A program made the position numbers and the translations under genes. A stretch of 64,000 bases of DNA from Sandaracinus amylolyticus. GTDB lineage: Bacteria; Myxococcota_A; Polyangia; Polyangiales; Sandaracinaceae. Position 1 is the first letter of the stretch; the number at the start of each line of letters is the position of its first letter. The notes under the pieces are model-generated. The model had not been told where the DNA came from and searched no databases. It was given only the letters and a program-made list of their open reading frames with translations. This document shows, piece after piece, positions 44,939 through 59,390 of this stretch. The stretch covers positions 3,224,001-3,288,000 of the forward strand of contig NZ_CP070225.1 in the NCBI RefSeq assembly GCF_021631985.1, in the 5' to 3' direction.

Positions 44939-47146
44939 TCAGCGCCGCTCGAGCTCGCGCAGGAACGCGTCCGCCCACACCTCGGGCGTGCTCCGTCGCA
45001 CTCGCTCGAGCATCGGCGCGTGACGCGCGATGCGCTCCTCCACCGGCATCTCGAGCGCGCGCACCAGATCGCGCGCCATCCCATCGCGGTCGTGAGGGTT
45101 CGTGAGGATCGCGCCCTCGAGCTCGTCCGCTGCGCCCGCGAACCTCGACAGGAGCAGCACGCCCGGGCTCGTCGGGTCCTGCGCCGCCACGTACTCCTTC
45201 GCGACGAGGTTCATCCCGTCGCGCAGCGGCGTCACGTAGCCCACGTCCGCCGCGCGATAGAGCGCCGCGAGCTGTCCGCGCCCGTACGAGCGATACACGT
45301 ACCGCACCGGCATCCAGTGCGCCTCGCCGTGCTCTCCGTTGATGCGCCCGACCAGCGTCTCGATCGCGCGCCGCTGCTCCGCGTACTCCGGCACGTCGGC
45401 GCGGGAGGGCACCGCGACCTGCAGCATCGACACGCGACCGCGCCACTCGGGATGCAGCTCGAGCATCCGCCCGAAGGCATCGAGCCGCTCGACGATCCCC
45501 TTCGTGTAGTCGAGCCGATCGACGCCGAGCACGAGCTTGCGACCACGCAGCGCCACCTGCAGCTCCGCGATCTCACCCTCGCTCGCCGCATCGATCTCCT
45601 CGAAGGGCGCCGCGTCGATCCCGAGCGGGAACACGCCGACGCGCACCTCGCGCCCGTCGACGCGCACGCCCGACGCGGTCGCGGTCGCGCGCGCCAGCTC
45701 CTCCGCGCATCGCACGAAGCTCTGCGCATAGCGGCGCGTGTGGAACCCGACGAGATCGAAGGCGAGCATCCCGTCCATCAGCGCGCGCGACCACGGGATC
45801 GTCTCGAAGAGATCGAGCGCGGGGAACGGGATGTGGAGGAAGAGCCCGAGCGGTCCGTGATGACCTCGCGCGCGCATCGAAGCCGCGACGAGCAGCAGGT
45901 GATAGTCGTGCACCCACACCGTGCCGCCGGGCGACACCAGGCGCGTCGCCATCTCGCCGAACACGTCGTTCACCTCGACGTAGGCGCGCCACTCGCTCTC
46001 GTCGTAGCGCGCGCGCCCGGGAAACCCATGGAAGATGGGCCAGAGGCTGCGGTTGGCGAACCCGTTGTAGAAGCGCGCGTGCCACTCGGGATGGAAGTCG
46101 AACGACGCGCGCACCGGGCTCGACGTCTCGTCCACCGCGAGCTCGAGCGCGCCGGGACGACGCCCGCCGCTCCACCCGAGCCACACACCGCCGCGCGCCG
46201 CGAGCGCCGGCGCGAGCCCCGAGACGAGCCCACCGACGTTGCGCGCGCGCTCGCTCTCGCCCGCCGCCGCGCTCGGCGCGTCGGGCAGGCGGTTCGAGAG
46301 CACGAGGAGCGACGTGCCATCGCGCGCCCCGCGGGGGAGCGGGCGCGGGAACGCGAGCTCGCCGCTGGGATCCACCTCCTGTCGCGCGCGCAGCAACGTG
46401 CGCAGGAACGAGCGCACGGCGCGCGGATCGTCGAGCCGTGCCTTCGCCCGCGTGGGTCGATCCGCGTTGCCCACGAGGACTGCGACGTCGTCGTCGTGCA
46501 GCGCCGCGAACGTGTCCTCGTCGGTGCGATCGTCGCCGAGCGCGACGAAGAGCGTTCCCGGCGGCACGTGCCCGCGCACCCACTCGACCGCGCTGCCCTT
46601 GTGCGCGCCGCGATGCCGCACCTCGAGCACCTGATCGCCCTCCAGCAGCTCGTACTCCGGGTGATGGAGCGCCCACGTCTCGATCGCGTCCGACGCCTCG
46701 ACGATCAGCGCCTCTCGCGCGCTCTCGGGCACACGCCGGAAGTGCAGCGTGACCGACCACGTCTTGCGCTCGACGAGCGCGCCTTCGTGCGGTCGCGCGA
46801 GCCTGCGCAGCGTGCGCTCGATGGGCGCGGGATCGGCGCCGTGCAGCTCGAGCTGGGCCCACCCGCGCTCGTCGCGCCGCCACGCGCCGTGCTCCGCCGC
46901 GAGGAGCACGCCCGCCACGTCGCCGAGCCGCGCGTCGAGCTCGTCGCGCTTGCGCCCGCTCACCACCGCGACGCTCACCCCGGGCGTGCCCGCGAGGCCC
47001 GACACCAGCTCGCGCGTGGGAGGGTCCACGATCGCCTGAGCAGGCGTCGCTGCGAACGGGATCAGTGTGCCGTCGAGATCGAGGATCAGCGCGACGTGCG
47101 GCGCGCGCGCGATCGTCTCCAGCAGCTTCGGGCCTCGTGCGTCCAT
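44939..47146 (-). CDS. otsBA: Fused trehalose-6-phosphate phosphatase / trehalose-6-phosphate synthase (TPP-TPS order)
   Basis: A 735-aa bifunctional enzyme for trehalose synthesis. The N-terminal HAD domain (about residues 1-245) has DLDGTLIPF, SGRKRDEL, and the C-terminal KGSAVEWV and GDDRTDEDTF boxes of trehalose-6-phosphate phosphatase. The GT20 domain (about 278-735) has LVLSNRLP, WVHDYHLLLV, VGVFPLGID, VDRLDYTKG and PLRDGMNLVAKEYVAAQ of trehalose-6-phosphate synthase. Most known fusions place TPS first; here the order is reversed. The ATG at 47146 begins close to the HAD domain. It probably makes trehalose under osmotic or desiccation stress. Confidence 0.93.
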   Translation of the reverse strand: MDARGPKLLETIARAPHVALILDLDGTLIPFAATPAQAIVDPPTRELVSGLAGTPGVSVAVVSGRKRDELDARLGDVAGVLLAAEHGAWRRDERGWAQLELHGADPAPIERTLRRLARPHEGALVERKTWSVTLHFRRVPESAREALIVEASDAIETWALHHPEYELLEGDQVLEVRHRGAHKGSAVEWVRGHVPPGTLFVALGDDRTDEDTFAALHDDDVAVLVGNADRPTRAKARLDDPRAVRSFLRTLLRARQEVDPSGELAFPRPLPRGARDGTSLLVLSNRLPDAPSAAAGESERARNVGGLVSGLAPALAARGGVWLGWSGGRRPGALELAVDETSSPVRASFDFHPEWHARFYNGFANRSLWPIFHGFPGRARYDESEWRAYVEVNDVFGEMATRLVSPGGTVWVHDYHLLLVAASMRARGHHGPLGLFLHIPFPALDLFETIPWSRALMDGMLAFDLVGFHTRRYAQSFVRCAEELARATATASGVRVDGREVRVGVFPLGIDAAPFEEIDAASEGEIAELQVALRGRKLVLGVDRLDYTKGIVERLDAFGRMLELHPEWRGRVSMLQVAVPSRADVPEYAEQRRAIETLVGRINGEHGEAHWMPVRYVYRSYGRGQLAALYRAADVGYVTPLRDGMNLVAKEYVAAQDPTSPGVLLLSRFAGAADELEGAILTNPHDRDGMARDLVRALEMPVEERIARHAPMLERVRRSTPEVWADAFLRELERR

Positions 47147-49893: not shown

Positions 49894-50736
49894 ATGCGTC
49901 ACCGCGATCCACCGCGTGATCCCGACGCCGAGCCCGCGCCCGACGACATCTTCGCGGACTTCGTGCGCCGCGCGAACACCGAGTGGGTCGCGTCGGTCGA
50001 GGCGCTGCTGAGCGAGCCGGATCCGTCGACGCACGAGGTCGAGAGCGACGAGGTCATCGAGCTCGACGAGGTCACCGAGGAGCACGAGCCCGCGACCAGC
50101 GATCGCGGCACCGATCGCATCGTGCTGCTCACGAACAAGAAGTCGCAGCCGCCGCCCGAGCCCGAGCGCGATCCCGAGCAGACCGTGCGGCGCAGCGAAG
50201 CGGAGATCCTCGCATCGGCAGGCCCGCGCGCGCGACGTCGCCGGAGCGCGAAGGACGCGGCGTGGCGCAGCGTGGTGCCCGAGCGCTCCGAGACCACGCA
50301 GCGCGTCGAGGCCGCGCGCGTGGTGCCCGACGTGGCCTCGGTGCCGCCGCCACCGCAGCTCCCGCAGGAAGGCAGCGAGGACGGGCAGATGCCGGCGGGC
50401 GAGCTCGATCGGAAGCTCGCCGACATGGACGTGCTGCTTCGCTACGGGCACGCGTCGCAGGTCGGCGCCGAGCTCGAGTCGCTGCGTCTCGTGTACCCGC
50501 GCGATCTCCTCCTGCTCCGGCGCATCGCGGAGCTCTACGTCGTGCACGACATGCGCGGCGCCGCGCTCGAGGCGCTCTTCGCGCTCGCCCACGCGCTCTT
50601 CGAGCGACGCAACGTCGAGGGCATGAAGCAGGCGCTCGAGCAGGTGCGCGTGCTCGATCCGAGCAACGGCCGCGCGGCGCGCCTGCTCGCGCTGCTCGCG
50701 CGCCGCCCCGAGTCCCAGCCGCCGCCGCGACGCTGA
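49894..50736 (+). CDS. Hypothetical TPR-like protein
   Basis: A 280-aa soluble protein. The N-terminal half is low-complexity and acidic (Glu/Asp/Pro). The C-terminal half is helical, with repeat-like segments (ELDRKLADMDVLLRYGHASQ, cited at about residues 170-190) that resemble degenerate TPRs. There is no signal peptide. ATG at 49894, divergent from the TPR gene at 49727. The sulfotransferase operon begins 93 bp downstream. I do not recognise a family. Confidence 0.65.
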   Translation: MRHRDPPRDPDAEPAPDDIFADFVRRANTEWVASVEALLSEPDPSTHEVESDEVIELDEVTEEHEPATSDRGTDRIVLLTNKKSQPPPEPERDPEQTVRRSEAEILASAGPRARRRRSAKDAAWRSVVPERSETTQRVEAARVVPDVASVPPPPQLPQEGSEDGQMPAGELDRKLADMDVLLRYGHASQVGAELESLRLVYPRDLLLLRRIAELYVVHDMRGAALEALFALAHALFERRNVEGMKQALEQVRVLDPSNGRAARLLALLARRPESQPPPRR

Positions 50737-50829: not shown

Positions 50830-51657
50830 ATGGGCGAGCGCGAGAAGGTCGTCTTCATCGGTGGCGCGGGCCATTCGGGCTCGACGCTGCTGGGCCTGAT
50901 GCTCGGCGCGCACCCGCAGGTCTTCTACGCCGGCGAAGCGCGCAAGAGCCTCTTCCTCGGCGACGAGAGCAAGCCGCTCAAGAAGCGCGTCTGCAAGCTC
51001 TGCGGCCCGAGCTGTCCGATCTGGGGCGAGCTCGGGCGCGCGCCCGGCGAGGACCTCTACGCGACGCTGGTGCGCCGCACCGGGCGGCGCATCGTCGTCG
51101 ACTCGACGAAGAACCTCTCTTGGCTCGACGAGCAGCTCGAGACGCTCGGGCACCGCGACGTCGATCGCCACCTCGTCTTTCTCGCGCGCGACGGACGTGC
51201 GGTCGTGTGCTCGCGCCTGCGCAAGTACCCCGAGCGCAGCGCGCGCGAGCACGCCGAGGACTGGGCCGCACAGATCCGCGCGACCGAGGCGCTCGTCGCG
51301 CGCTTCCCGGGCACCGTGCTGCGCCTGCGCTACGAAGCGCTCGCGTCCGCGCCCGAGCCCACGATGCGCGAGGTCGCGTCGTTCCTCGGCATCGACTACG
51401 TGCCCGCGATGATCGCGCCGTGGACCACCGAGCAGCACCCGCTCGGCGGCAACAACGGCACGCAGTTCCTCATGCGCGGCACCGAGGGCGGCGTCGTCGC
51501 GCTGACCGACAAGACGCGCGATCACTACGGCGCGCATCCGCGCGGCATCGTCCTCGACCTGCGCTGGAAGCGCGAGCTGGGCGACGACGCGCGCGCCGCG
51601 TTCGACGAGGTCGCCGGAGACCTGAACCGCGCGTACGCGTGGGACGGAGAGACGTGA
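50830..51657 (+). CDS. Sulfotransferase (PAPS-dependent)
   Basis: A 275-aa cytoplasmic sulfotransferase. The 5'-phosphosulfate loop is GAGHSGSTLLGLML (about residues 11-24). The 3'-phosphate-binding region is FLARDGRAVVCSRLRKY. These bind PAPS; the acceptor substrate is not predictable. A CKLCGPSCPIW segment (about 55-65) adds four cysteines near the active site. Its stop overlaps the next gene's GTG (GTGA), and that gene overlaps the ABC transporter by TTGA, so the three are one unit. GGAGG lies about 14 nt before the ATG at 50830. Confidence 0.85.
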   Translation: MGEREKVVFIGGAGHSGSTLLGLMLGAHPQVFYAGEARKSLFLGDESKPLKKRVCKLCGPSCPIWGELGRAPGEDLYATLVRRTGRRIVVDSTKNLSWLDEQLETLGHRDVDRHLVFLARDGRAVVCSRLRKYPERSAREHAEDWAAQIRATEALVARFPGTVLRLRYEALASAPEPTMREVASFLGIDYVPAMIAPWTTEQHPLGGNNGTQFLMRGTEGGVVALTDKTRDHYGAHPRGIVLDLRWKRELGDDARAAFDEVAGDLNRAYAWDGET

Positions 51658-53144
51658 GAGCCAGCATCGAAGAAGGCGTCGTCGAGACGCTCCCCGGAAC
51701 CTACGCGCCGCCGGGCGCGCGACCGATCGAGCTCGTGTTCCGCACCGTCGGCGAGCGCACGAGCGACCTCGCGCTCCAGTTGGCCCTGCAGCACGTGAAG
51801 CCGACGCGCGCGCACGTGATCCGCGACGTGAAGCCCTTCGCGCTCGCGGTGCGCAAGATGCTCGAGATCGAGCACCACTGCGATCACGTCGTCCACATGG
51901 ACGCGGACTGCCTGATCCTCGAGGACATGCGTCCGTTCCTCGACGCGAACACGCTGCCCTACGTCGACTGCTACGTGCGGGATCGTTTCCGCGGGCGCAT
52001 CCACTGCGGCGTGCACGTCACGCGCATCGACGTCGTCGACAAGATGCGCTCCATCCCCGAGCCGCTCGACGATCTCGCGTACGTGCTCCGCCCCGAGTCG
52101 CGCCTGCGCAACATGGCGCTCGCCGACCTCGCGCTCGAGAAGCAGCTCAAGAGCTTCCACATCCTGCACGACCACTTCCAGCGCTTCACCGACATCTTCG
52201 CGAAGTACGCGCTGCGCGAGCTGCGGAGCCGCACCGAGTTCCAGAAGAAGCGGCTCGGCGCGTCGATGGCGCGCTGGGGCGAGGGCACCGACTACGACGT
52301 CGCGCGCCGCGCGGTGCAGCACGCGGCGAGCACGGTCCCCGAGGACGCGAAGGCGAAGCACGTCGAGCTCTACATCCGCAACCTCCCGTACATCGCGGAG
52401 GTCGAGGTCCGGAACATGGGCCTCGAGCAGAGCGGACAGGTCACGATGGAGGAGGTCGAGGCAGCGGTGAACGGCGATCCGACGAAACTTGGTCCGGCAC
52501 CCAAGAAACCGAAGGTGTTCGGGCTCGGCCTCTCGCGCACCGGAACGCGCTCGCTCACCGCGGCGCTCCACGTGCTCGGCTTCGACACGGTGCACTACCC
52601 GACCGATCGCGCGACGCTCGACACGCTGGTGCGCGGCGACGCGCGCTTCCCGCTGCTCGATCACTACGACGGCATGACCGACATCACGACGGCGCCGTAC
52701 TTCGAGGACTTCGATCGCCTGTACCCCGGCAGCAAGTTCGTGCTCACGGTGCGCGACACGCCGGCGTGGCTGCAGAGCTGTCGCAACCACTGGACCGGTC
52801 GCTCGGCGTACGAAGCCGCGTCGACGAGCGATCCGATCGCGGCCGAGGAGCACCGCGTGCACATGGAGATCCGCCGCTTCCTGCGCGCGGCGGTGTACGC
52901 GAGCTACGAGTTCGACGAAGCGCGCTTCGAGCGTGCGCATCGGCGCCACGTCGAGAACGTCACGCGCTACTTCGCGAATCGCCCGAACGATCTCCTGGTG
53001 CTCGACATCGCGGGCGGTGACGGCTTCGAGAAGCTCGCGCCCTTCCTCGGCGTGCCCGTGCCCGAGCAGCCCTTCCCGCACAAGGGGAAGCGGCTGAGCG
53101 AGCGCATGGCAGAGAAGCACGCGAACCTCGAAGTCGACGATTGA
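51654..53144 (+). CDS. Glycosyltransferase-like / sulfotransferase fusion
   Basis: A 496-aa protein with two parts. Residues about 20-200 look like a GT-A glycosyltransferase with a DxD-type HMDADCLIL near residue 82 and HCGVHVTRIDVV. Residues about 285-490 form a second sulfotransferase of the Sulfotransfer_4 type (VFGLGLSRTGTRSLTAALH, then TVRDTPAWLQSC and NDLLVLDIAGGDGFE). Fusion of these activities, next to a separate sulfotransferase and an exporter, suggests synthesis of a sulfated glycan or glycolipid. The GTG at 51654 overlaps the upstream stop. Domain calls are good; the product is inferred. Confidence 0.8.
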   Translation: MRASIEEGVVETLPGTYAPPGARPIELVFRTVGERTSDLALQLALQHVKPTRAHVIRDVKPFALAVRKMLEIEHHCDHVVHMDADCLILEDMRPFLDANTLPYVDCYVRDRFRGRIHCGVHVTRIDVVDKMRSIPEPLDDLAYVLRPESRLRNMALADLALEKQLKSFHILHDHFQRFTDIFAKYALRELRSRTEFQKKRLGASMARWGEGTDYDVARRAVQHAASTVPEDAKAKHVELYIRNLPYIAEVEVRNMGLEQSGQVTMEEVEAAVNGDPTKLGPAPKKPKVFGLGLSRTGTRSLTAALHVLGFDTVHYPTDRATLDTLVRGDARFPLLDHYDGMTDITTAPYFEDFDRLYPGSKFVLTVRDTPAWLQSCRNHWTGRSAYEAASTSDPIAAEEHRVHMEIRRFLRAAVYASYEFDEARFERAHRRHVENVTRYFANRPNDLLVLDIAGGDGFEKLAPFLGVPVPEQPFPHKGKRLSERMAEKHANLEVDD

Positions 53145-55003
53145 GCACGAACGGTCACGCGAACGGCGGCGGGCGCATCGCGGCGAGCCTCTGGGTGCTG
53201 CGGCTCGCGTTCCGCGCCGCGCCGCGCGCCACGATCGCGATGGCGGTCTGCACCATCGCGATCGGCGTGCTGCCCGCGGCGGCCGCGTACGTCGGCAAGT
53301 GGATCGTCGACACGGTCGTGCTCGCGCTCCCGCTGCGCGAGACCGGATGGGGCCAGTACAAGCCGACGCTCTGGATGCTCGTCGCGCTCGAGGGCTCGCT
53401 GATCGGCCTGCTCGTCGCGGCGCAGCGCGCGCAGAGCGCGGCGCAGGCGATCCTCAAGACGCGCATCTCGAACCGCGTCGCCGAGATGATCCTCGCCAAG
53501 GCGACGACGCTCGAGCTCGCGCACTTCGAAGATCCCGAGGTGCACGATCGGCTCACGCGCGCGCGGCGCGACGCGGGGGTGCGCCCCTACAACCTCGTCA
53601 CCGGGATCTTCGTCGTCGCGCGCAACCTCGTGACGCTCGCAGCGTCGATCGTCGTGCTGCTCGCGCTCTCGTGGTGGGCGGTGCTGATCGTCGTGCTCGC
53701 GGGTCTGCCCGCGTTCGTCGCGGAGCTCTCGTTCTCGCAGCAGATCTTCGATCAGCAGCGCAGGCGCACGCCCGAGCAGCGCGAGCAGGCGTATCTCGAG
53801 GCGGTCCTCACGCGCGAGGACTTCGCGAAGGAGGTGAAGCTCTACGAGCTCGCCGAGCCGCTGCTCGAGCGCTTCCGGACCATCGCGTCGCGCATCGAGC
53901 AGGAAGAGCGCGCGATCACGCTGCGCCGCAATTGGTGGGGCACGCTGCTCAACCTGATCGGCACCGCGGCGTTCTATCTCGCGTACGCGTGGATCGTGCG
54001 ACGCACCGTGAACGAGCACCTCACGCTCGGACAGATGACGATGTACCTCGTCATCTTCCGCCAGGCGCAGCAGGGCGTGACGCAGGGGCTCGCGAGCCTC
54101 GGCATGATGCTCGACGACCACCTCTACCTGCGCGACCTCGAGTCGTTCCTCGCGCTCCCGATCGCCACGGTCGACGGCACGCGGACGTCGGGCCTCGGTC
54201 CGCGCGCGGGGCTCGTCGTGAAGAACCTCTCGTTCACGTATCCGGGCGCGACGGTGCCGGCGCTCGAGAACGTGTCGTTCACGATCGCGCCCGGCGAGAT
54301 CATCGCGCTCGTCGGACAGAACGGCTCGGGCAAGACGACGCTGATCAAGCTGATCACGCGTCTCTACGACGTGCCGCGGGGGCGCATCTTCCTCGACGGG
54401 CTCGACGTGCTCGACTGGGACGTACACGCGCTGCGACATCGGTTCGCGCCGGTGTTCCAGGACTTCGTGCGCTTCCGGATGAAGGCGGGCGAGAACGTCG
54501 GCGCGGGCGACGTCGAGCACTGGTACGACGAGCAGCGCTGGATCGACGCGGCGAAGCTCGGCCTCGCGCACGACTTCGTGTCGGAGCTGCCCGAGGGCTA
54601 TCACACGCAGCTCGGCAAGTGGTTCAAGGGCGGCCAGGAGCTCTCCGGCGGTCAGTGGCAGAAGATCGCGCTCTCGCGTGCGTTCATGCGCGAGCAGGAC
54701 GCGATCCTGGTGCTCGACGAGCCGACGAGCGCGCTCGATCCCGACGCCGAGGTGAAGATCTTCGAGCACGTCCAGCAGACGCGCGGACAGCGCATGGTGC
54801 TGCTCATCTCGCACCGCTTCGGATCGGTGCGAATGGCGGATCGCATCGTGGTGCTCGACGAAGGACGCGTCGTCGAACAAGGCCCGCACGACGCGCTGAT
54901 CGAGAACGAAGGCCTCTACGCGCGCCTCTTCAAGCTGCAGGCCGCGGGCTATCTGGGCCGCAACAGCCTCGCACCCGCGCGCGAAGCCGACGACTCCGAC
55001 TGA
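53141..55003 (+). CDS. ABC transporter, fused permease-ATPase
   Basis: A 620-aa half-transporter of the MsbA/MDR export class. The N-terminal membrane domain (about residues 15-330) has five to six helices. The ATPase has Walker A GQNGSGKTT (about 392-400), Q-loop FQDFVRF, signature LSGGQ (near 500), Walker B ILVLDEP and the H-loop LISHR. Such half-transporters work as homodimers and often export lipids or polyketides. The TTG start at 53141 overlaps the fusion gene's stop (TTGA). Its cargo is probably the sulfated product of the two upstream genes. Confidence 0.92.
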   Translation: MSTNGHANGGGRIAASLWVLRLAFRAAPRATIAMAVCTIAIGVLPAAAAYVGKWIVDTVVLALPLRETGWGQYKPTLWMLVALEGSLIGLLVAAQRAQSAAQAILKTRISNRVAEMILAKATTLELAHFEDPEVHDRLTRARRDAGVRPYNLVTGIFVVARNLVTLAASIVVLLALSWWAVLIVVLAGLPAFVAELSFSQQIFDQQRRRTPEQREQAYLEAVLTREDFAKEVKLYELAEPLLERFRTIASRIEQEERAITLRRNWWGTLLNLIGTAAFYLAYAWIVRRTVNEHLTLGQMTMYLVIFRQAQQGVTQGLASLGMMLDDHLYLRDLESFLALPIATVDGTRTSGLGPRAGLVVKNLSFTYPGATVPALENVSFTIAPGEIIALVGQNGSGKTTLIKLITRLYDVPRGRIFLDGLDVLDWDVHALRHRFAPVFQDFVRFRMKAGENVGAGDVEHWYDEQRWIDAAKLGLAHDFVSELPEGYHTQLGKWFKGGQELSGGQWQKIALSRAFMREQDAILVLDEPTSALDPDAEVKIFEHVQQTRGQRMVLLISHRFGSVRMADRIVVLDEGRVVEQGPHDALIENEGLYARLFKLQAAGYLGRNSLAPAREADDSD

Positions 55004-55254: not shown

Positions 55255-57165
55255 TCAGAGCTCGAGCTGCATGCCCATCTCGACCACACGATCGGGCGGC
55301 AGTCGGAAGAAATCCGTCGCGGGTCGCGCGTTCCTCGAGAGGAACGAGAAGAGCACCTTGCGCCAGTGCGCGAGCCCCGGGTTCTTCGTGATCACCAGCT
55401 TCTCTCGACCGAGATAGAAGCTCGTGTCCTCGGGCTTCGTGTGCAGCCCTTCTTCGTGACAGGCACGCAGGATGTCCGTCACCCGCGGCGACTGCATGAA
55501 CCCGTAGTGCGCCGTCACCTGGAAGAAGTTCTCGCGCAGTCGCTCCACCTTCACGCGCTCTCGGCGCGGCACCGTCGGCACGTCGTCGGTCACGACGCTC
55601 AGCAGCACGACTTGATGGTGCAGCACCTTGTTGTGCTTGAAGTGATGGAGCAGCACCGGCGGCGTGCCGCCCAGCTGCGACGTCATGAACACCGCAGTGC
55701 CGGGCACGCGGATCGGATCCTTCGCGTCCACCTCGTCGAGGAACTCGTCGAGCGGCCGCGAGCGCTCCCGCAAGAAGCGCCCGACGCGATCGCGCCCCGC
55801 CTTCCACGTCGTCAGGATCGCCAGCATCACCGCCGCCGTCGCGATCGGGAACCAGCCGCCGTGCGGGAGCTTGTCGACGTTCGCGAGCAAGAACGGGATG
55901 TCGACCGCGAGCATCAACGCGCAGAGGACCCCCGCGCGCGCCGGGCCCCACCAACGACGCGCCACCAGGAAGAAGAGCACGCTGGTGATCGTCATCGTGC
56001 CCATCACCGACATGCCGTACGCCGCGGTGAGCCTCGAGCTCGTCTGGAACACCAGCACGAGCGCGATGCACGCGACCATCAAGAGCCGGTTCATCTCGGG
56101 CACGTAGATCTGCCCTTCGGTCTCGCTCGACGTGTGACGCACCTCGAGGCGCGGCAGATATCCGAGCTGGATCGCCTGGCGCGTCAGCGAGAACGTCCCC
56201 GAGATCAGCGCCTGCGACGCGATCACCGTCGCGAGCGTCGCGAGGAGCACGAGCGGGATGCGGAACGCATCGCCGACGAGCCCGTAGAACGAGTCCTCCG
56301 CGCGCTCCGGGTGCGCGAGCAACATCGCGCCCTGACCGAAGTAGTTCAGGACGAGGCCGGGCATCACGACGCTGAACCACGCATTGCGGATCGGCGTGCG
56401 CCCGAAGTGCCCGAGATCCGCGTACAGCGCCTCGCCGCCGGTGACGCAGAGCACGACGCTGCCGAGGATCCAGAACCCGTCGAGCCCGTTGCGCAGGAAG
56501 TACGAGACCGCGTGGTGCGGCGAGAGCGCGCCGAGGATCTCGGGGCGCTGCGCGATCCAATAGACGCCCATCGCGCCGATGGTCAGGAACCACACGACCA
56601 TCACGGGCCCGAACACCGCGCCCACGCGCCCCGTGCCGCGCTTCTGCGCGAGGAAGAGCACCACGATGATCACCAGCGCGAGCGGGACGACGAAGCGCTG
56701 CATCCCGTGCGCGACACCGCCGAGGCCCTCGACCGCGCTGAGCACCGAGACCGCGGGCGTGAGCATCCCCTCGCTGCACAGCAGCGAGGTCCCGAAGAGC
56801 CCCATCACCACCAGGACCGTCGGGCGCACGCCGCGCTTCGGCAGCGCCAGCGCGAGCAGCGCGAGCGTGCCGCCCTCCCCGCCGTTGTCGGCCCGCGTGA
56901 CGAAGCCGAGGTACTTCACGACGATGACGAGCGTCAGCGTCCAGAAGAAGAGCGAGAGCACGCCGTAGACGTTCGCCGTGGTCGGCGCGACCGCGTGCGG
57001 CCCGTGGAAGCACTCGCGGAGCGCGTAGAGCGGCGAGGTGCCGATGTCGCCGTACACCACGCCGAGCGCGCCGAGCGTGAGCGCGAGAGCACCGGTGCGG
57101 TGATGGTGCCCTCCGTGCGCATGCGCGTGCGAGTGCGAGGAGCTGCTGGCTGCGCTGTCCGCCAT
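55255..57165 (-). CDS. kup: Potassium uptake protein Kup (second of tandem pair)
   Basis: A 636-aa KUP/HAK-family K+/H+ symporter with about 12 membrane helices and a cytoplasmic C-terminal domain. The family motif GVVYGDIGTSPLYALRE is near residue 35. Other markers are LFLAQKRGTGRVG and RQAIQLGYLPRLEVRHTS. The N-terminus is His-rich (SHSHAHAHGGHHHR). It starts 1 bp after the stop of an upstream paralogue and shares its motifs, so it arose by duplication. Confidence 0.93.
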   Translation of the reverse strand: MADSAASSSSHSHAHAHGGHHHRTGALALTLGALGVVYGDIGTSPLYALRECFHGPHAVAPTTANVYGVLSLFFWTLTLVIVVKYLGFVTRADNGGEGGTLALLALALPKRGVRPTVLVVMGLFGTSLLCSEGMLTPAVSVLSAVEGLGGVAHGMQRFVVPLALVIIVVLFLAQKRGTGRVGAVFGPVMVVWFLTIGAMGVYWIAQRPEILGALSPHHAVSYFLRNGLDGFWILGSVVLCVTGGEALYADLGHFGRTPIRNAWFSVVMPGLVLNYFGQGAMLLAHPERAEDSFYGLVGDAFRIPLVLLATLATVIASQALISGTFSLTRQAIQLGYLPRLEVRHTSSETEGQIYVPEMNRLLMVACIALVLVFQTSSRLTAAYGMSVMGTMTITSVLFFLVARRWWGPARAGVLCALMLAVDIPFLLANVDKLPHGGWFPIATAAVMLAILTTWKAGRDRVGRFLRERSRPLDEFLDEVDAKDPIRVPGTAVFMTSQLGGTPPVLLHHFKHNKVLHHQVVLLSVVTDDVPTVPRRERVKVERLRENFFQVTAHYGFMQSPRVTDILRACHEEGLHTKPEDTSFYLGREKLVITKNPGLAHWRKVLFSFLSRNARPATDFFRLPPDRVVEMGMQLEL

Positions 57166-57166
57166 G

Positions 57167-59143
57167 TCAGAGCTCGAGCTGCATGCCGATCTCGAGCACG
57201 CGGTCGGGTGGCAGCTTGAAGTAGTCCGACGCGGGACGCGCGTTCCTCGAGAGGAACGTGAAGAGCACCTTCCGCCACTGCGCCATGCCGGGGTTCTTCG
57301 TGACCACGAGCTTCTCTCGACCGAGATAGAAGCTCGTCTTCTCGGGTCGCGTCGAGAGCCCGTGCTTCTTCTCCGCCGCGCGCAGGATGTCGGTCACCTT
57401 CGGTGACTGCATGAAGCCGTACTTCGCGGTGACTCGATAGATCCCGTGCCCGAGATCGTCGACGCTCACACTCTCGTCCTTGGGCACGAAGGGCACGTCC
57501 TGCACCTGGATGCTGAGCAACATGATCTGCTCGTGCAGGACCTGATTGTGCCGATAGTGGTGCACCAAGACCGGCGGGGTTCCGTTCGCGGACGCGGTCA
57601 TGAACACCGCAGTGCCCTTCACGCGGAACGGGCTCTCGCGCTCGATGCGCGGGATGAACTCGTCGAGCGGCACCGAGCGATTCTGCAGGAAACGGGCGAC
57701 GCGCTCGCGCCCCCTCTTCCAGCTCGTCATCACCGCGAGCACACCCAACGCGACCACGATCGGGACCCAACCACCGCTCGCGATCTTGACGACGTTCGCT
57801 CCGAAGAACGCGAGGTCCACCACCAACATCGGCGCGCACACCGCGACGGCGCGCGCCGTGCCCCACCACTTACGCACCACGACGTAGAACAACACCGTCG
57901 TGATGCCCATCGTGCCGGTCACCGCGATGCCGTACGCCGCGGCCATGCGGCTCGAGCTCTGGAACGCGATCACGAGCGCGATGCACGCGACCATGAGGAT
58001 GCGGTTCACCTCGGGCAGGTAGACCTGGCCCTCGGTCATGCTCGACGTGTGTCGGATCTCGAGGCGCGGGAGGTACCCGAGCTGGATCGCCTGGCGCGTG
58101 AGCGAGAACGCGCCCGAGATGAGCGCCTGTGACGCGATGACCGTCGCGAGCGTCGCGAGGATCACGAGCGGGATGCGCATCCAGCCCGCGGCCATCGAGA
58201 AGAACGGCGCGTGGGCGTGCTCGGGATGCGCGAGCAGGAGCGCGCCCTGCCCGAGGTAGTTGAGGATCAACCCGGGAAACGCGACCGCGAACCACGCGAG
58301 CACGATCGGGCGCCGCCCGAAGTGCCCCATGTCGGCATAGAGCGCCTCGCCACCGGTGATGCACAGCACGACGCTGCCGAGCACCAGGAATCCGATCAGC
58401 TGGTGACGCGCGAAGAACGTGACCGCGTGGTGCGGCGAGATCGCGGCGAGCACCTCGGGATGCTGCACCACCTGCACCGCGCCGAGCGCGCCGATCACCA
58501 CGAACCAGAGCAGCATGATCGGCCCGAAGATCATGCCGACGCCGCCGGTGCCGCGCTTCTGCGCCAGGAAGAGCACGACGAGGATCGCGATCGCGATCGG
58601 CACGATCCAGTCGTCGAGACGGTGCCCGACACCTTCGATCTGCTCGATGCCCTCGACCGCCGACACGACGGAGATCGCGGGCGTGAGCATGCCGTCGGCG
58701 TAGAGCAGCGACGCGCCGAAGAGGCCCATCAGCACGAGCCAGCCCACACGCGGACCGCGCTTGGGCAGCACGAGCGCGAGCAGCGCGAGGATCCCGCCCT
58801 CGCCCTGGTTGTCCACGCGCGTGACGAAGAAGATGTACTTCACGACGACGACGAGCGTCATCGCCCACACGAAGAGCGAGAGGACGCCGAGCACGTTCTC
58901 GTGCGTGGGCGTGATCCCCGAGGACTCGTGGAAGCACTCGCGCAGCGCGTAGAGCGGCGAGGTCCCGATGTCGCCGTACACCACCCCGAGCGCGCCGAGC
59001 GCCAGCGTGCCGAGCGCACCGTGGTGATGATGTCCGCCGTGGCCGCGCGAGTCGCTCGTGGTCTCTGCCCCGATCGGCGCGGTGGTGGCGGCGCCGCCCG
59101 ACGGTGGGCCGGCGTCCTCGGTGCCTGGGGTCGGTCCCGACAT
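57167..59143 (-). CDS. kup: Potassium uptake protein Kup (first of tandem pair)
   Basis: A 658-aa KUP-family transporter, paralogue of the downstream gene. It has GVVYGDIGTSPLYALRE near residue 57, LFLAQKRGTGGVG and RQAIQLGYLPRLEIRHTS. The N-terminus is longer and carries GHGGHHHHGALG. The ATG at 59143 lies 14 codons inside a longer open frame and directly precedes a plausible N-terminus (MSGPTPGTEDAG). One base separates it from the second kup, so the two are co-transcribed. Confidence 0.93.
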   Translation of the reverse strand: MSGPTPGTEDAGPPSGGAATTAPIGAETTSDSRGHGGHHHHGALGTLALGALGVVYGDIGTSPLYALRECFHESSGITPTHENVLGVLSLFVWAMTLVVVVKYIFFVTRVDNQGEGGILALLALVLPKRGPRVGWLVLMGLFGASLLYADGMLTPAISVVSAVEGIEQIEGVGHRLDDWIVPIAIAILVVLFLAQKRGTGGVGMIFGPIMLLWFVVIGALGAVQVVQHPEVLAAISPHHAVTFFARHQLIGFLVLGSVVLCITGGEALYADMGHFGRRPIVLAWFAVAFPGLILNYLGQGALLLAHPEHAHAPFFSMAAGWMRIPLVILATLATVIASQALISGAFSLTRQAIQLGYLPRLEIRHTSSMTEGQVYLPEVNRILMVACIALVIAFQSSSRMAAAYGIAVTGTMGITTVLFYVVVRKWWGTARAVAVCAPMLVVDLAFFGANVVKIASGGWVPIVVALGVLAVMTSWKRGRERVARFLQNRSVPLDEFIPRIERESPFRVKGTAVFMTASANGTPPVLVHHYRHNQVLHEQIMLLSIQVQDVPFVPKDESVSVDDLGHGIYRVTAKYGFMQSPKVTDILRAAEKKHGLSTRPEKTSFYLGREKLVVTKNPGMAQWRKVLFTFLSRNARPASDYFKLPPDRVLEIGMQLEL

Positions 59144-59390
59144 GGCGGAGCGCTCTACCCCCGCGCCTCCGAGCGCGCAACACACGGGGGTCCCCCCGCT
59201 TGCTGGTGTGATCCACGGATGCTACCGGCCGGGACGGGAGCGCGGTGGTGCGTCCAGAGAAGTGCGCCGGAGGATGCTCGCTTCGTTATGCTGCGCTCGC
59301 TGGCTTCGTTCGGGGGTTTGGGTCGCAGCGTGTGGGTCTCTGCCACGGGCTGCTCGGGAGCACGCACGGCTCCCGGAGGGTGCTCTCGCG

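Follow-up and report, generated by a model that had tools for sequence, protein, structure and literature searches.

PAPS-dependent sulfation of glycolipids is known from the Nod-factor NodH/NoeE and the mycobacterial Stf0 sulfolipid systems, and to our knowledge sulfated glycans and glycolipids are poorly known beyond cyanobacteria, rhizobia and mycobacteria. The cassette described here (genes P1, P2 and P3, listed below) may resemble these systems in its chemistry, and no nodulation or mycolate genes were seen near it. The synechan (xss) cluster of Synechocystis 6803, which makes a sulfated exopolysaccharide (PMC8205485), resembles the cassette in being a bacterial cluster that combines two sulfotransferases of distinct subfamilies with glycosyltransferases and an export system. 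It differs in having eight separate glycosyltransferases and Wzx/Wzy polymerisation (PMC8205485); in the cassette a single GT domain is joined to a sulfotransferase, a polymerase is absent and the exporter is of ABCB type. At the level of single proteins, Cpz8 (PDB 9kf1/9kf2) and SgdX2 (8y9p) resemble the C-terminal domain of P2 in fold and PAPS-binding region, at 27-28% identity, but both are stand-alone sulfotransferases of other pathways that lack a GT-A domain. WrtF, LgtC and GT2/GT8-type enzymes have a GT-A-type fold and a DxD motif in common with the P2 N terminus, from which they are nevertheless remote (TM <0.5, about 12% identity), the window protein lying outside the Pfam GT families at cut-off. 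Exporters of the MsbA/PglK ABCB type have the same half-transporter architecture as P3 and the same intact ATPase motifs, although the match to PglK covers the ATPase part only.

The cassette consists of three intact plus-strand genes at positions 50830-55003 of the window, the whole 64,000-nucleotide stretch of DNA that was analysed (C1:3224001-3288000 of a 10.96 Mb genome), joined by 4-bp overlaps. Its features are as follows.

50830-51657, + strand: P1, ATG start, 275 aa, Sulfotransfer_3, predicted PAPS-type sulfotransferase
50863-50895, + strand: putative PAPS 5'-phosphosulfate loop GAGHSGSTLLG, P1 residues 12-22, kept in 16 homologues from several phyla
50992-51015, + strand: three-cysteine motif of P1, C55-x2-C58-x3-C62, all three Cys invariant in 53/53 homologues
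51654-51657, + strand: GTGA overlap of the P2 start with the P1 stop
51654-53144, + strand: P2, GTG start, 496 aa, fusion of a GT-A-type domain with Sulfotransfer_4
51714-52478, + strand: GT-A-type domain, P2 residues 21-275, from AlphaFold, Foldseek and weak Glycos_transf_2 matches among members
51900-51908, + strand: DxD motif D83-A84-D85, invariant in 50/50 homologues from 10 phyla
52167-52172, + strand: H172-D173, candidate third metal ligand, invariant in 50/50 homologues
52512-53090, + strand: Sulfotransfer_4 domain, P2 residues 287-479, Pfam E 5e-37, best PDB matches Cpz8 and SgdX2
53141-53144, + strand: TTGA overlap of the P3 start with the P2 stop
53141-55003, + strand: P3, TTG start, 620 aa, predicted homodimeric-type ABC exporter (ABCB/MsbA-like)

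The coordinates, starts and overlaps were all confirmed, and the coupling of three genes through GTGA and TTGA in the original prediction is real; a 98%-identical copy in a second genome of the genus, along with the 66 loci found elsewhere, rules out chance. P2 has no second match in its own genome and P1 has a single distant one (30.7 bits), with no close paralogue. A scan for promoters and terminators was uninformative, giving 0 promoters and 1 terminator where 1.4 were expected. The upstream gene at 49894-50736, with a weak TPR match, was set aside as a fourth operon member because its conservation is patchy and its distance to P1 differs: its C-terminal part is kept upstream in L018, L026 and L027, L019-L021 lack it there, and it is separated from P1 by 93 bp in the window and by about 600 bp in L018. 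Two tandem Kup-type potassium transporter genes on the minus strand (55255-57165 and 57167-59185) converge on the cassette, and a minus-strand gene at 44939-47146 encodes one chain in which a trehalose-phosphatase domain precedes a GT20 trehalose-phosphate synthase domain. A polymerase or flippase together with several glycosyltransferases, as in a Wzx/Wzy or capsule-type cluster, was absent from the tested window neighbours and recurrent nowhere in the 66 loci.

We consider it fairly probable, from the sequences and their conservation, that the three genes form an operon-like cassette for a sulfated glycoconjugate, which would glycosylate an acceptor, sulfate it at probably two sites and often export it. 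We infer that the GT-A domain of P2, with a metal held by D83-x-D85, would transfer a sugar from a nucleotide-sugar to the acceptor, and that the fused Sulfotransfer_4 domain would then sulfate the glycosylated product with PAPS as donor. P1, a second PAPS sulfotransferase, would act at another position on the same molecule, and P3, where present, would move the product across the cytoplasmic membrane. Among a glycan, a glycolipid and a small glycoside as the product, the data favour none.

Both sulfotransferases of the original prediction were borne out by family matches. P1 scores 62.5 bits against Sulfotransfer_3 (PF13469; gathering score 27, E 9e-17), the P2 C terminus belongs to Sulfotransfer_4, and the match of P1 to the NoeE model is 12.7 bits only (cut-off 500). 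Within P1, the GHSGST loop is present in a motif that we take, from knowledge of the family, to be the PAPS loop, and R120 and S128, the Arg and Ser of the 3' site, are found in 53/53 homologues; the three invariant cysteines are possibly a metal site. In relatives from the same family a third sulfotransferase gene lies directly upstream of P1 (L019 12987-13925, L020 2858-3835, L021 6385-7329), and the L020 copy, which was tested, is a Sulfotransfer_3 member. P3 matches ABC_tran (E 2.6e-28) and, weakly, ABC_membrane (25 bits, just below the 28-bit cut-off). It aligns over its full length to MsbA and ABCB1 chains with the Walker A, LSGGQ, Walker B and H-loop residues conserved, and reads as an ABCB-type exporter with a TM domain fused to one ATPase. 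Its nearest equivalog is MsbA (TIGR02203), for which it scores 284.2 bits, below the 602-bit cut-off, so that the description as MsbA-like is fair but identity as MsbA itself is not.

Among 284 members of the phylum, the N-terminal domain of P2 was found only in the window's own family, Sandaracinaceae, where P2 occurs in 9/10 genomes (11 loci counting the window) and 10 full-length relatives align with the window P2 at 53-97% identity. A profile was run against 84,980 species genomes with anchor peptides from this family, so that more distant members may be missing, and gave 66 loci in ten phyla, many of them from MAGs: Cyanobacteria, Alphaproteobacteria (mostly Maricaulaceae), Streptomyces/Kitasatospora, Lokiarchaeota, Spirochaetota, Bacteroidota, Chloroflexota, Acidobacteriota, Gemmatimonadota and Myxococcota. 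The Lokiarchaeota contigs that carry P2 are L048, L071, L072, L075, L076 and G503. Where it is present P2 is rare, with 3 of 386 cyanobacteria, 15 of 200 genomes of the Maricaulis order, 3 of 247 of the genus Streptomyces and 4 of 195 Asgard genomes. The N-terminal domain is fused to Sulfotransfer_4 in all 66 loci, counting the broken copies L087, L088 and L093, and 25/25 profile matches in 1,028 further genomes lie within open frames of at least 454 aa; the fusion or its remnants in every locus, together with these open frames, rules out a local accident or an annotation artefact. Across a family that spans many phyla, the fusion is the standard arrangement. It had been called unusual, which is right within the literature searched and misses that this is the only form in which the N-terminal domain was seen.

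The partners of P2 are kept to different degrees. A P1 relative is present in 54 of 65 loci and lies immediately next to P2 in 49, with a spacing of ≤15 bp in 35 of the 44 co-directional adjacent loci, and ABC relatives occur in 38/65 and adjoin in 34. The order is mostly P1-P2-ABC, becoming P2-ABC-P1 in three Streptomyces loci and ABC-P2 in Kitasatospora, and in the five Lokiarchaeota loci examined P2 is convergent with P1 and has no adjoining ABC gene. That the linkage survives rearrangement points to a shared function for P1, P2 and the ABC protein. Across the 200 genomes of the alphaproteobacterial (Maricaulis) order, the same 15 carry P2 and P1, and every pair is adjacent. The pairwise identity matrices also correlate (P2-P1 r 0.80, P2-ABC 0.87, P1-ABC 0.84, against a permutation null of ≤0.40), correlations and co-occurrence both being uncorrected for shared ancestry. 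Joint conservation of the neighbours, as originally predicted, is therefore strong for the P1-P2 pair and only partial for the ABC gene.

Within Sandaracinaceae P1 adjoins P2 in all loci. The ABC gene follows the pair in the window, L018, L019 and L021 and is absent from L024, L025, L026 and L027, where the flanks are present; L020, L022 and L023 stop at contig edges. The P1-P2 pair is the core and the ABC gene a frequent partner, a distinction that the original prediction did not draw. In a second branch of the family P1-P2 is flanked by a divergent gene (L022 2883-3944, L023 2949-4010, L024 4327-5328, L025 9994-11028) and by a conserved gene string; for the L077 copy of L025, which was tested, the divergent gene belongs to the Putative esterase family (PF00756).

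These gaps bear on an alternative in which the P1-P2 pair is the real unit and ABC genes were recruited independently in each lineage, P3 then not transporting the product of the pair. It would account for the absence of an adjoining ABC gene in the Lokiarchaeota loci and in half of those Sandaracinaceae loci whose flanks could be read, and for the presence of two or more divergent ABC types, which are 21-63% identical to P3 across loci and only 21-30% in many cyanobacterial and actinomycete loci. We nevertheless think it unlikely, given the 34 immediate ABC neighbours in unrelated phyla, the closer type (35-41% identical to P3) in Alphaproteobacteria, Acidobacteriota, Gemmatimonadota and Spirulina, the P2-ABC correlation and the gene overlap in the window. 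The exported sulfated glycan or glycolipid pathway of the original prediction is sound in outline and partly supported: the cassette is conserved and the predicted fold agrees, the chemistry is still a matter of what we infer, and export through P3 is not obligatory, because several loci whose flanks are intact, some from the same family, have no ABC gene next to the pair.

The P2 tree suggests that P2 was passed between phyla with its partners kept, because five actinomycete rows fall inside the myxobacterial group (100/99) and the Gemmatimonadota and Acidobacteriota rows inside the alphaproteobacterial group (98/82). The Lokiarchaeota rows form one group adjoining a Bacteroidota row, and four of the Lokiarchaeota contigs have further neighbours in common, which argues against mis-binning.

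In the cassette reading the N-terminal part of P2 is taken to be a glycosyltransferase. For the window protein, these ∼280 aa gave nothing above the Pfam cut-off, and the domain is absent from Pfam; 16/47 members of the domain match Glycos_transf_2 (best E 1.7e-5), and a weak match to GT92 was also seen. The sole PDB-sequence profile match, which is non-significant (E 0.89) and suggestive only, aligns the DxD with YIDAD of a UDP-Gal transferase. A match to Cas Csm6-HEPN (E 0.03-0.13) came from one of the 47 members only and was discarded as chance. AlphaFold modelled the whole of P2 at pLDDT 82 and the N-terminal domain alone, with 47 diverse sequences, at pLDDT 96.3 and pTM 0.91. The leading PDB matches of the domain model in Foldseek are the WrtF fucosyltransferase, hyaluronan synthase, galactosyltransferases and sugar nucleotidyltransferases, with a probability of about 1.0 yet a TM of only 0.31-0.46, from which the modelled fold is of GT-A type and the family distant from anything solved. 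The GT-A domain predicted for the fusion is in this respect supported by the model. About 20 residues are invariant in 50/50 homologues, D83, D85, H172 and D173 among them, and H172-D173 is a candidate third metal ligand of the GT domain, a role that we presume from LgtC-type enzymes.

Because KdsB and the sugar-1-phosphate nucleotidyltransferases match structurally at comparable E-values, and every structural match stays below a TM of 0.5, the domain might instead be a sugar-activating nucleotidyltransferase or a catalytically dead binding domain of GT-A fold. We regard this as decidedly unlikely, since the DxD is invariant together with about 20 further residues, which is not expected of a dead domain, and the weak sequence matches are with Glycos_transf_2, GT92 and, at the DxD, the UDP-Gal transferase.

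The C-terminal domain of P2 covers positions 1-211 of the 215 in the Sulfotransfer_4 profile (PF17784; 128 bits, gathering score 22.8) and is predicted to carry out PAPS-dependent sulfuryl transfer. In 11 P2 proteins R295, D343 or R367 is missing from the fused domain. An intact stand-alone Sulfotransfer_4 gene is present in the same locus in 7 of these 11, compared with 4 of the 53 proteins whose fused domain is intact (Fisher p 1e-4, a statistic that ignores shared ancestry). The seven belong to two independent lineages, Streptomyces (L042, L065, L066, L074) and cyanobacteria (L055, L056, L068); L037, L044, L049 and L086 have a decayed fused domain and no visible partner in the stretch examined. 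The Streptomyces fused domain, with G at 295 and S or G at 343, is predicted to be inactive and its stand-alone neighbour active. The domain tree places the stand-alone proteins of Streptomyces within the fused group of Sandaracinus type (99/97) and those of cyanobacteria within the fused group from cyanobacteria (97/94). The simplest reading is that in both lineages duplication was followed by decay of the fused active site. Hence the fused sulfotransferase activity appears to be needed and able to act in trans, while the remainder of P2 is still kept, and its replacement by a stand-alone duplicate, seen in two lineages, serves as a natural test of what the domain does. A YcaO gene and another conserved gene occur near the same four Streptomyces copies and suggest a larger biosynthetic cluster.

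Genes for the supply of activated sulfate and sugar accompany the cassette. There are two APS kinase matches in the window's genome and at least one in 24/24 cassette genomes tested, and in the Asgard sample APS kinase is found in 4/4 cassette genomes compared with 79/195 overall (chance about 0.03). In a Leptospiraceae locus P1 is preceded by an APS kinase gene (Pfam E 7e-62), and in a Bacteroidetes locus P2 is followed by a gene for an EF-Tu-like GTPase, read as CysN. Four actinomycete loci and one Gemmatimonadota locus have a gene for an NAD-dependent epimerase next to the cassette, and three Streptomyces loci have a GT4-type gene there. Such supply-type neighbours favour sugar plus sulfate chemistry, and no acceptor-making gene is conserved among the cassette loci. 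A further alternative, also decidedly unlikely in our estimate, is that sulfation is a chemical activation, providing a leaving group on a small secondary metabolite exported by a drug-type ABC protein: activating sulfation has precedents in the curacin/olefin-synthase and SgdX2-type sulfotransferases, SgdX2, described as an activating enzyme, is among the nearest solved relatives, P1 weakly matches a polyketide-synthase sulfotransferase domain in the PDB (E 6e-5), and YcaO, PhyH and amidohydrolase genes occur near some of the actinomycete copies, but no elimination, thioesterase or polyketide gene is conserved, genes other than the triad recur in at most 5 of the 66 loci, the Maricaulis triad stands alone and the GT domain is fused in every case.

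Literature on GT-sulfotransferase fusions, on Sulfotransfer_4 and on sulfotransferases of Asgard archaea, Sandaracinus and Maricaulis, in which few subscription journals were covered, contained no description of the fusion or the cassette, and the architecture of P2 is new to that literature. Returning to the reading of the three genes as a glycosylating and sulfating cassette, we would tentatively go further and propose a transferable, self-contained cassette for a new class of doubly sulfated glycoside or glycolipid, built on an acceptor common to Bacteria and Asgard archaea, in which one chain would carry out glycosyl transfer and one sulfuryl transfer and a P1-type enzyme with an invariant three-cysteine site would take part. 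The cassette is small, with two or three genes, occurs in cultivable strains and makes definite predictions: one DxD, two PAPS sites and one exporter. It predicts one common kind of sulfated sugar compound in Maricaulis, Glycocaulis, Streptomyces, Spirulina, Sandaracinus and Lokiarchaeota, probably one that nobody has isolated.
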